The position numbers and the translations under genes were made by a program. Source: Desulfitobacterium dichloroeliminans LMG P-21439 (GTDB lineage Bacteria > Bacillota > Desulfitobacteriia > Desulfitobacteriales > Desulfitobacteriaceae). From it: a DNA stretch of 64,000 bases. Where the stretch lies: positions 1,030,001 to 1,094,000 of the forward strand of contig NC_019903.1 of the NCBI RefSeq assembly GCF_000243135.2, in the 5' to 3' direction. Below are positions 60,157 to 64,000 of this stretch, piece by piece. Position 1 is the stretch's first letter. Every line of letters begins with the position of its first letter. A model generated the notes under the pieces. The model did not search any database, had not been told where the DNA came from, and saw only the letters and a list, made by a program, of their open reading frames with translations.

Positions 60157-60642
60157 TTAGCGGCGAAGGATAATCAATAATCCGCTGACGATGAGAATAA
60201 GGGGAATGATTAAGCCTAGATTAACTGTGACAGCTAGGGCATTATAGATAAATGATAAATACGCAATCACAGCAATACTGCTCAATATTGCGATAGGAAA
60301 AAGGAGCCCTCGCGGGCGATCTGAAGCAAAATAGAGTTGGAGGAGGCCAAAGGCTACTGCTAAGAGGTAAATCGGCCATGTATATTCGGAAAAACGCCAA
60401 TGGGTCAACATTTCGAACTCAAAGAGAAAACCAATAACGAGTAAGATCCCCCCGGGAACAAGCATTCCGGGGGCTTTCTTGTCGGCAAGATAAGCTCCTT
60501 CAAAGAACAAACCCAAGAGAATAAGCAAGAGCGGCCAATGAGTGGCTATCATTCCAAATTGAAATCCGAGGAGATTAGCGCTCAATAGGATACCACCCAC
60601 CCCGATAAGGAGAATTCCCAAAAACGACTTGTTTCTTTCCAT
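60157..60642 (-). CDS. LiaI/LiaF-like multi-pass membrane protein
   Basis: A 161-residue protein with about six hydrophobic helices and glycine-rich LIGVGGILLSANLLGF at the start, typical of the LiaI-LiaF-like transmembrane region used in envelope-stress systems. Start at the Met of MERNK because AAGGAGGT is 7-8 nt before it; the frame extends a few codons further. It is divergent from the PspC-domain gene, which carries the same membrane unit, suggesting linked roles. Confidence 0.72.
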   Translation of the reverse strand: MERNKSFLGILLIGVGGILLSANLLGFQFGMIATHWPLLLILLGLFFEGAYLADKKAPGMLVPGGILLVIGFLFEFEMLTHWRFSEYTWPIYLLAVAFGLLQLYFASDRPRGLLFPIAILSSIAVIAYLSFIYNALAVTVNLGLIIPLILIVSGLLIILRR

Positions 60643-60823
60643 CAAATTTACCTCCTTAGCACTCATATGAATTCATCCTTTAACTAGGTGAAACCTTTTA
60701 AGGCCAATTACGTATTAAGAAATGAAGGAAGTGTTTAAATAGTAAAGTATTACTATCATCATTATAAATGGTAGTAACAAAACAAGAAAGTGAATTGGGA
60801 AGATAAACAGGGAGGAAATCAAC

Positions 60824-61309
60824 ATGACAAATCGTTTGTATCGTTCCTCGAGGGAAAAGATGATTGGCGGCGTGTGTGGAGGGTTGGCAGACTATTTCGA
60901 TGTGGATGTAACCTTAGTGCGGATAGTCGCACTGATTACCTTATTTATGGGAGGGGCAGGTATTCTACTTTATCTTGCCGCGTTAGTTATTATCCCCAGT
61001 GATCGGCATGATCGCCCCATTTCTTATGGTGGGCAAGGAGATCATGTTCAAGATATTATGGATGAGGTCGTACAAAATGTTAAGAATACGGCAAGAGATT
61101 TTGGAGTCGACTCTCATACGTACACTACAAGTAAAAAGGATTACCCGCGACGCGGCAGAACAGCAGGAATCATCCTAGTTGCCCTTGGTGTACTATTTCT
61201 GCTGAATCAATGGTTTCCGATCTGGGATACCTTGTCTTTTATCCTAAGTAAAATGTGGCCCCTAGTTTTAATTATTCTTGGGGCCACGATGATTTGGAAA
61301 AGATCCTAA
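60824..61309 (+). CDS. PspC-domain protein with LiaI-like C-terminus
   Basis: A 161-residue membrane protein. Residues 1-60 are a PspC domain ([21 protein letters not shown], one long hydrophobic helix). A hydrophilic linker follows (70-110), then two helices with [16 protein letters not shown] and [13 protein letters not shown], as in LiaI/DUF5668 proteins. Likely part of envelope-stress sensing. AGGGAGG lies before ATG 60824. Its 3' end overlaps the convergent gene by 4 bp. Confidence 0.85.
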
Positions 61310-61893
61310 AAACCGATTCGTTTCAAAACGAGTCCGCCCAATTTTTTTGCTAACGGTAGGCCAACCCTTTTAGCCAAGGGAAAGCCTACCTTTTTTATTA
61401 GGGGAAGAGTTACTTTGTCGGCGAGGGCTGGACCTAATCGCTGAGCGAGTTGTGGCGCGAAGTTTCGAGCGAAAGGTGTCCCCAATTCTCGGGCAAGGGT
61501 AGGACCGTAATTTTGGAGAAGCCTTAAGCCTTGTTGTTGAAGAAGAGAACTTAGAGATAAGTTGCTGTTTTCAAGAGCATTTTCAGAAGATTTCGCTGGG
61601 GAATTCTGAGAAGGCTTTGGTTTTCCAGTCGGCCTTATGATATTAGGTGTTTTTTGATTAACTGTTGTCTGGGGGGTGCTTTGCAATCTTTTATCCGTAC
61701 TGGACTGTGGTGCACTATTAGGATTTGCGGGTAGGGGATTAGAACTTAGCGGGGATTGTTGCTGAGAAGTTAGTGAAGACGGTGTAGATGGTGCAAGCGG
61801 AAGATTATATATATTATTTTGAAAGAATCGAGAGTTGGCTTGAGGGGTGCCCAAGGAATTGCCTTGTGGTTTGGCTGGCGAGAAAAGGTGCAT
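61306..61893 (-). CDS. Low-complexity protein with C-terminal octapeptide repeats
   Basis: A 195-residue protein of unknown family. Residues about 1-105 are rich in Pro, Ser, Gln and Asn with no predicted fold. Residues 130-193 are eight tandem octapeptides with consensus G-x-P-L-A-K/R-K/R-V/L (for example GFPLAKRV and GLPLAKKL). This gives a basic, amphipathic tail that could bind membrane or anionic polymer. No signal peptide. AAGGAGGGA precedes the ATG on the minus strand, so the gene looks real. Convergent with the PspC-domain gene. Confidence 0.75.
61315..61506 (-). repeat. Eight degenerate 24-bp repeats coding for octapeptides
   Basis: The codons for residues 130-193 of the minus-strand gene form eight units of 24 bp. 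The last three copies before the end are the most alike; earlier copies have drifted. Confidence 0.75.
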
Positions 61894-62224
61894 ATTTATT
61901 CCCTCCTTATGGAAAACACCATTGTCGACTTACCCAATGTTCTAATCCACAATATTCGAGTTATATGGTAAAGGTTACCAATGGACTTAGCAGTACAACT
62001 ATAATTCGTAATGAATGCTTCGAGATATATCTCACAATCGTTTCCAGAAAAACACTAATGACTTTATAGGTGCATCTGATATATCATTGGTATTGCGGAC
62101 AGGCAATCATTAAGTATATCAACAGTGTATATTATAATTAGCAGATTTAGATATACTGTGTACTTCGTGATTTGCATGCAGCAATAATCATAAATAATTA
62201 CAATTATAGGGGGAAATTCTTCGA
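61894..62224. other. Intergenic region before the cell-wall-binding protein
   Basis: AT-rich, 331 bp between divergent genes. A TATAAT hexamer at 62133-62138 with a poor -35 (TTAAGT near 62110) could drive the plus-strand gene. I see no RNA gene, riboswitch or terminator in it. Confidence 0.5.
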
Positions 62225-64000
62225 ATGAAAAAGACAAGAGCTCGTGTTTTATCCAGTGCAATTGTTGCAACTATGGTATTAGGCACTGCATTTCCGGCTG
62301 CTGTTTTAGCCGACACCCAGGTTCCTGCCGGTGAAACAAAGAGTTCCGTTGATCGTTTATATGGTGAGAATCGTTTTGAGACAGCAGCAAAAGTAGCAAT
62401 TGAAGGATGGGAAGATTCTAAAGTTGCAATCCTGGCTTCTGGTAAAAAAGAGAACCTCGTGGATGCCCTGACTGCCGCACCCTTTGCTAAGTCTGTGGAT
62501 GCACCTATTCTATTGACCGATGGGGCAAAGATTCCTGAGGCCACTATCAAGGCGCTTAAGGCCTTAAAAGTTGAAGAAGTTTATACTGTAAGCGGTGCAA
62601 TTAAAAAGGAAGCTTTAGAGAAGGCTTTCAAAGATAATGAGTTAGAAATTGTAGTTAAAGAGGAGTTAGGTGGCAAGGACCGCTTTGAAACGGCAAAAAA
62701 TATTGCAGAACAGCTTGAAGGGGTACAAGGGGTTATGGTAACCACAGCCTTTAAGAATGCTGATGCTCTTTCTGTTGCCTCTATAGCGGCTGCGAAGAAT
62801 ATGCCGATTCTTTTAGCCCATCCGAATCAAGGTTTGGAAGCACAGGCAGAATATTTGGATAGCATCAAAGATCAAGTGAAGAAAACCTACGTTCTCGGTG
62901 GGGAAACCTTGGTCAGTAAAAAAGTTTATGAGGAATTGCCAGGAAAAGATGGCGAAAGTAAGATTCGTATTTTTGGGGATGATCGTTTCGATACGAACCT
63001 GAAAGTTTTAAAGACCTTTTCGGATCTGAAATATGACAAGGTTTATGTAGGCAATGGTTTTGATAACCATCTTGTGGATGCTCTGGTTGTATCTGCTCTT
63101 GCAGCAAAAACAAATTCTCCGATTGTCTTGACTGATAATAGTCTCAGCAAAAAAGTAGAAGACTTCTTGCTTCCTAAACTAGGGCAAAAGAGCATCGTAG
63201 CCCTCGGTGGATCGACGGTTGTCACTGATAAAGCTCTCACCTTTAATCATGTTCGTCCCCAAGACTTCGGTGTTATGCAGTTTTCGGGTGTGAATGGCTA
63301 TAATGTTGGTCTCCAAATTGTTGATGGAACTGCAAGGGATTTAAAGAGTGTTGAAGTTACCCTTTATAAGGGGGACAACATCCTTGCAAAAAACACCAGC
63401 TTGGATAAACTCTTTAACTCATACCCTGATGCTACACAACTTTCTACTCCCTTTAATATTGACGGAAACTTCGCTGCTGATGGATTCTGGACCTATGGCA
63501 AGTATAATGGGACAGTTCTTGATGTTCCCAATAAAGCTGTCATTAAAGTGACCTATTCTGATGATCGTGTTTTCGAAATAGTGAATACCAATCTTACTGG
63601 AAATCCTGAAGATCTGAACAAAGAAGCTCTCAACCATGTTAAGGCTGAAGATTTCGGTGTAATGCAAAGCTCTGGAGTTAACGGATACAGTGTTGGCTTC
63701 TCCTTAGTGGACAAACTCCCTGTAGATTTAAAGAGCATTGAAGTGAGTTTGGTTAAAGTAGAAACCAGCAAAGATGAAAAAACAGAAGAAGAGCAAGTTA
63801 CCGAGACAGTCTTGGTTACCAACATGGCTACTCGTGCTAAGAACGCAAAGCTCTTCGAATTGACTGGTAAACAACTTTCTTCTCCCTTTAACATTGATGG
63901 ATCCTTTGAGGAGGATGGTTACTGGACTTATGGTGAGTTTAAGGGAACAGTTGAAGATGTCCCAACCAAAGCTGTAATCACCATCGAATATCAGGATGGA
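62225..64000 (+). CDS. Exported protein with cell-wall-binding repeat 2 domains (incomplete at window end)
   Basis: The frame is open from ATG 62225 (AGGGGGA upstream) to the window end, 592 codons. It has a signal peptide (KKTRARVL..., cleavage near VLADT) and three PF04122-type cell-wall-binding repeats, marked by RLYGENRFETAAKVA, LGGKDRFETAKNIAEQ and FGDDRFDTNLKVL, each with an LGG- or SG-containing end. From about 63250 a different unit appears twice: DFGVMQFSGVNGYNVG...FNIDGNFAADGFWTYG and DFGVMQSSGVNGYSVG...FNIDGSFEEDGYWTYG. The first domain anchors to wall polymers; the C-terminal units are unknown to me. Confidence 0.85.
   Translation, partial: MKKTRARVLSSAIVATMVLGTAFPAAVLADTQVPAGETKSSVDRLYGENRFETAAKVAIEGWEDSKVAILASGKKENLVDALTAAPFAKSVDAPILLTDGAKIPEATIKALKALKVEEVYTVSGAIKKEALEKAFKDNELEIVVKEELGGKDRFETAKNIAEQLEGVQGVMVTTAFKNADALSVASIAAAKNMPILLAHPNQGLEAQAEYLDSIKDQVKKTYVLGGETLVSKKVYEELPGKDGESKIRIFGDDRFDTNLKVLKTFSDLKYDKVYVGNGFDNHLVDALVVSALAAKTNSPIVLTDNSLSKKVEDFLLPKLGQKSIVALGGSTVVTDKALTFNHVRPQDFGVMQFSGVNGYNVGLQIVDGTARDLKSVEVTLYKGDNILAKNTSLDKLFNSYPDATQLSTPFNIDGNFAADGFWTYGKYNGTVLDVPNKAVIKVTYSDDRVFEIVNTNLTGNPEDLNKEALNHVKAEDFGVMQSSGVNGYSVGFSLVDKLPVDLKSIEVSLVKVETSKDEKTEEEQVTETVLVTNMATRAKNAKLFELTGKQLSSPFNIDGSFEEDGYWTYGEFKGTVEDVPTKAVITIEYQDG
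63251..64000 (+). repeat. Two copies of an unrecognised beta-rich domain
   Basis: Copy 1 spans about 63251-63563 and copy 2 about 63638 to the window end. Shared anchors are DFGVMQ-SGVNGY-VG, DLKS-EV-L, L-TPFNIDG or L-SPFNIDG, WTYG and a VP-KAVI end. Copy 2 has a charged Glu/Lys insert (near 63765-63810). Confidence 0.8.

Follow-up and report, generated by a model that had tools for sequence, protein, structure and literature searches.

Near one end of the 64,000-nt stretch of Desulfitobacterium dichloroeliminans DNA analysed here (the window), a gene encoding eight tandem octapeptides converges with a PspC-domain gene, and the question is whether its product serves the envelope-stress response, as a sequence-only reading had proposed, or some other process. 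The answer that we favour, with a probability of about 0.66, is that this protein is a late mother-cell product of the sigma-K regulon laid down on the spore as it forms, most likely in its coat. The gene and its parts lie as follows.

61306..61893, minus strand: coding sequence (195 aa, ATG start) of the octapeptide-array protein, with relatives in 48 of the 61 related genomes and a dN/dS of about 0.1
61902..61907, minus strand: putative ribosome-binding site AGGAGG, 8 nt upstream of the ATG, recognised from sequence
61579..61893, minus strand: predicted disordered arm, residues 1–105, rich in Pro, Ser, Gln, Asn and Thr (composition and AlphaFold2)
61318..61509, minus strand: residues 129–192, eight octapeptide units, basic, amphipathic and predicted to be helical

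The open reading frame is a real gene, conserved as a single-gene unit and present in one copy in the genome (3.62 Mb, one contig). The sequence-only reading had placed the frame exactly and counted its eight tandem octapeptides correctly, and the period is unmistakable: identity within the array reaches 0.37 at lag 8, or 0.68 when residues are compared by class, no other lag between 2 and 15 exceeds 0.12 (0.33 by class), and none of 20,000 shuffles attained this periodicity. Since TRF detected no DNA-level tandem repeat in the window gene, the 8-residue period is maintained by selection at the protein level. The array is followed by the residues IGF, its units 1 and 8 are degenerate, and the unit consensus refined over 17 members reads hydrophobic-G-[P/L/I/F]-P-L-A-[RK]-[RK]. 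The disordered half and the basic amphipathic character of the repeat, both claimed earlier, hold as well: P, S, Q, N and T make up 63% of residues 1–110, pLDDT is low over residues 1–105, and composition together with the hydrophobic moment agrees with an amphipathic basic array.

AlphaFold2 modelled the full protein with a single helix that spans roughly residues 106–193 (pLDDT about 61–78, pTM 0.21) and left residues 1–105 with no secondary structure (pLDDT 40–50); the array alone gave a mean pLDDT of 70.5 and a pTM of 0.34. The structure prediction recommended by the sequence-only reading has yielded a helical array and a disordered arm, the former as a model of moderate confidence only. 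With prolines recurring at 8-residue intervals, it is doubtful that the array forms a straight, regular alpha-helix. In the window array and in one array of g6 the hydrophobic moment is maximal at 90 degrees per residue, which corresponds to 4.0 residues per turn, and low at 100, a peak that arises partly because the 8-residue period is exact. No membrane span was found (19-residue stretches reach a hydrophobicity of 0.9 at most), and no signal peptide or export signal is apparent in the protein.

The proposed search for the repeat in other genomes produced relatives that preserve the 8-residue period, so that the objection foreseen at the outset, a want of such homologues, does not arise. There is one relative per genome except in G046, which has two, and most apparent second matches in the profile search are two halves of a single array. 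Within the class, profile A1 registers the array family in 56 of 82 genomes, all of them in f1, to which the window belongs, or in the sister family f3; the same kind of search in a 398-genome draw of the phylum gave nothing credible outside these two. Weak profile matches in G094, G186 and G353 were rejected as unrelated low-complexity or out-of-frame octapeptides, for instance FGQPCFER. A Cys-containing octapeptide protein from another family of the phylum (L107, about 1501–1665) repeats FGQPCFER about 8 times and is likewise unrelated.

In f1 the disordered half is N-terminal and the array C-terminal, while in f3 the array comes first and is followed by a basic low-complexity region, most members terminating in an S-L-F-x-R-R-R-like motif. 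Most length differences between arrays are multiples of the 8-residue unit, while those of a few f3 members amount to 4 residues. Comparison of the window gene with two congeners gave for the array a dN of about 0.10 and a dS of 0.9–1.3, and within g6 a dN of 0.06 against a dS of 1.0; these rates indicate that purifying selection acts on the array, and the inheritance of the gene, judged from its distribution, is vertical and single-copy. A side observation concerns the protein ends. The C-termini in f3 (L043–L061) mostly read S-L-F-x-R-R-R-x-x-Y and the N-termini in g6 (L006–L028) read M-x-S-L-M-G-Q-R-G, which may represent a single short motif placed at either end of a swapped architecture.

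The repeat had been said to resemble no known family, and this stands: searches of Pfam, NCBIfam, PHROG and, by sequence, PDB gave no match. A phage search gave none either, viral contigs were not confirmed, a related-locus search of the genome contig collection returned no relative, and in the literature searched no description of the family was found. Based on these data, the family is previously unnamed, its repeat is absent from the libraries searched, and by profile it is confined to one order of spore-forming anaerobes. It could nevertheless be among the candidate coat families compiled in supplementary Table S3 of PMC3533761.

An indication of function comes from the upstream regions, which align across the family on a conserved block. 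In the window this block reads GGTAAC-N17-AATATTGTGGATTA (minus strand, 61979–61943), in g6 AAC-N16-CATACCGTGTATTA, and it contains the following feature.

61949..61975, minus strand: variant of a sigma-K-type promoter, with AC at 61975–61974, a 17-nt spacer and AATATTGT at 61956–61949

A strict sigma-K pattern, AC-N16/17-CATA-N3-T no more than 120 nt from the start codon, occurs before 36 of 42 family genes in 13 of 16 genera and, among 262 neighbouring genes, before only 5 (with genera as the counting unit, Fisher p is about 6e-16). Patterns of other sigma factors are not enriched among these 42 genes (sigma-G 0, sigma-E 4, sigma-A 1). As a control, spoIVA, which is transcribed by sigma-E in B. 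subtilis, showed the sigma-K pattern in none of 26 cases. For dpaA, which is a sigma-K gene in C. difficile (PMC3789822), it was registered in 28 of 29 loci (27 of 28 plus the own genome, where the site is ACCGCACTCAACTTTCCCTCATATACT). The pattern itself accords with the sigma-K consensus, in which the -35 element is AC and the -10 element resembles that of sigma-E (PMC3789822). The promoter remains with the gene while the neighbours change, and the genome encodes a full-score sigK (TIGR02846, 321.6 bits against a cut-off of 298.65; G000:C1:2504860-2505561). Sigma-70-type sites between 60800 and 62300 are near the shuffle level, with none immediately before the array gene, and an Rfam search of 60500–62300 returned nothing.

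For the window gene the promoter departs from the rule. Here and in its congeners AATA replaces CATA, the -10 element being AATATTGT, and none of the four members of the genus matches the strict pattern; they match a relaxed one only, which was devised after the alignment had been seen and is also satisfied by 5.7% of background regions. With CATA missing, the assignment of this particular gene to sigma-K rests on the position and flanking bases that it shares with the other family members, and its support is weaker than that for the family, at the level of which sigma-K control is well supported. Taken together, these upstream sequences make it very probable that the array gene is under sigma-K control.

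The phyletic pattern points to sporulation as well. SpoIVA is absent from 7 of the 82 genomes of the class, and 6 of these 7 also lack the array family: five from genus g16 (G048, G052, G054, G059 and G071) and G015, a congener of which, G007, has both. In the seventh, G055, the array family and DpaA are present, and because of the latter the absence of SpoIVA is probably an assembly gap. Restriction to genomes with sporulation genes, as would be required of a coat protein, is therefore what was found. The association has a Fisher p of 1.4e-4 within f1 and f3 with phylogeny ignored, and the co-absence amounts to about two independent losses, in g16 and in G015. These genomes lack SpoIVA, and DpaA too where tested, and have apparently lost sporulation. 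SpoIVA-positive genomes that are devoid of the array gene also exist (eight from f1 and f3 together, three from f2 and every one of the nine from f4), so the gene is not needed for sporulation as such. Apart from this, the final 70 nt before spoIVA (L162 in the own genome, L148–L176) carry a leader, GGTGGGGGCCCTTCCCC...GGGACAGCACTCAAAAGGGAGGGAA, which is strongly conserved across the order; it resembles a hairpin and may act as a regulatory RNA or a binding site.

A promoter shows when and where a protein is made, not its destination, and any anionic surface might be a target for an array that is basic and amphipathic. The product might, therefore, be a sigma-K-dependent mother-cell protein that works outside the coat, for example on membranes or nucleic acid in mother-cell lysis or maturation. 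We consider this unlikely: searches in Pfam and NCBIfam found no enzymatic domain, and a disordered low-complexity arm, lineage restriction and a single-gene unit are typical of coat proteins (PMC3533761).

Much less probable is the envelope-stress role suggested by the neighbourhood, in which the protein would partner the PspC-domain product and its array would bind the cytoplasmic membrane of growing cells. The neighbour is genuine (PF04024, E 2e-24) and convergent as the sequence-only reading had it, its 3' end overlapping the array gene by 4 nt; such a PspC/LiaI-LiaF-type gene adjoins the array gene in the window and its congeners, and a basic amphipathic array would suit a membrane. In 40 loci compared, however, the array gene mostly stands alone amid varying neighbours (by names read from sequence, UspA-like in g6, and nrdD-like, dehydrogenase-like and metH-like in f3). 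PspC adjoins it within the genus only and is nearby in one other genome, G010, so that the envelope-stress context is only local; nearly all other genera lack this neighbour, and the convergent genes share no operon, which sets the protein apart from a Psp-Lia system. The conserved promoter is of sigma-K type, with a sigma-A type in a single family gene, and the family is missing where sporulation genes are missing. The envelope-stress link is thus not supported, and the evidence favours sporulation. On the other side of the locus, from 62226 to about 64000 and beyond on the plus strand, lies a gene for a large exported-looking protein with RLYGENRFETAAKVA-type segments like cell-wall-binding repeats, which is found beside the array gene in the genus and in G009.

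Some antimicrobial peptides are amphipathic and contain Lys, Arg and Pro. A secreted or cell-associated antimicrobial-like or adhesin-like protein with no sporulation role is, despite this likeness of the array, the least probable alternative, given the absence of an apparent signal peptide and, in the 40 loci, of conserved neighbours with roles in export, immunity or maturation, the vertical single-copy inheritance and the sporulation-type promoter.

According to the preferred reading of a spore-surface protein, sigma-K would drive synthesis late in the mother cell and the product would be added to the spore as it develops, most likely to its coat, a location that carries the same weight as the reading as a whole. 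Lineage-restricted low-complexity proteins are described as typical of spore coats (PMC3533761). The C-terminal array would form a helix with Gly/Pro breaks at 8-residue intervals, one face being hydrophobic and the opposite face rich in Lys and Arg, and attach the protein to the negatively charged outer membrane of the forespore or to basal coat layers. We infer attachment to the forespore surface from the amphipathic basic array combined with the lack of a transmembrane stretch and export signal; the array may bind a membrane or a polymer, as the sequence-only reading had suggested, direct membrane binding being less likely than not. The Pro/Gln/Ser-rich arm may be a flexible spacer or a matrix former. 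In f3 identical parts are found in reversed order.

A bolder version is rather doubtful: the array may be a new membrane- or layer-binding device, in which Gly/Pro breaks set 4.0 residues per turn, so that an extended, straight amphipathic stripe results and, late in development, fastens the coat to the surface of the forespore, as a multivalent counterpart of SpoVM usable in either domain order by two bacterial families. A hydrophobic stripe of such pitch would be an unusual amphipathic-helix design. Clostridia lack SpoVID, SafA and CotE, which are morphogenetic proteins of the Bacillus coat (PMC3533761). The clostridial spore coats of this order are largely uncharacterised, and the array family offers a widespread single-copy candidate with a sigma-K-type promoter and a distinctive repeat, hence a testable handle on how outer spore layers are built and attached.

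Among known proteins, YqfQ/VrrA (PF14181) is a low-complexity protein of spore formers with a similar size and GP-containing segments. PF14181 matched none of 27 array sequences and nothing in 21 related genomes, among them that of the window, whereas the profile does recognise B. subtilis, and membership of the array protein in this family was therefore rejected. CotG, the C-terminus of CotB and CotC of Bacillus are lineage-restricted, repetitive, basic, low-complexity products of the late mother cell, features that the array protein shares, the last by prediction. Their repeats are hydrophilic and rich in Ser, Lys, Arg and Tyr, whereas the array repeat is hydrophobic-basic with Gly and Pro at fixed places. 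SpoVM, the 26-aa coat anchor of B. subtilis, is an amphipathic mother-cell peptide whose helix-breaking proline is required for localisation to the forespore membrane (PMC12004969), and the likeness to the array is one of possible mechanism only. SpoVM is one short helix that acts when coat assembly begins, whereas the array protein combines about eight tandem Gly/Pro-interrupted units with a disordered arm and a sigma-K-type promoter.
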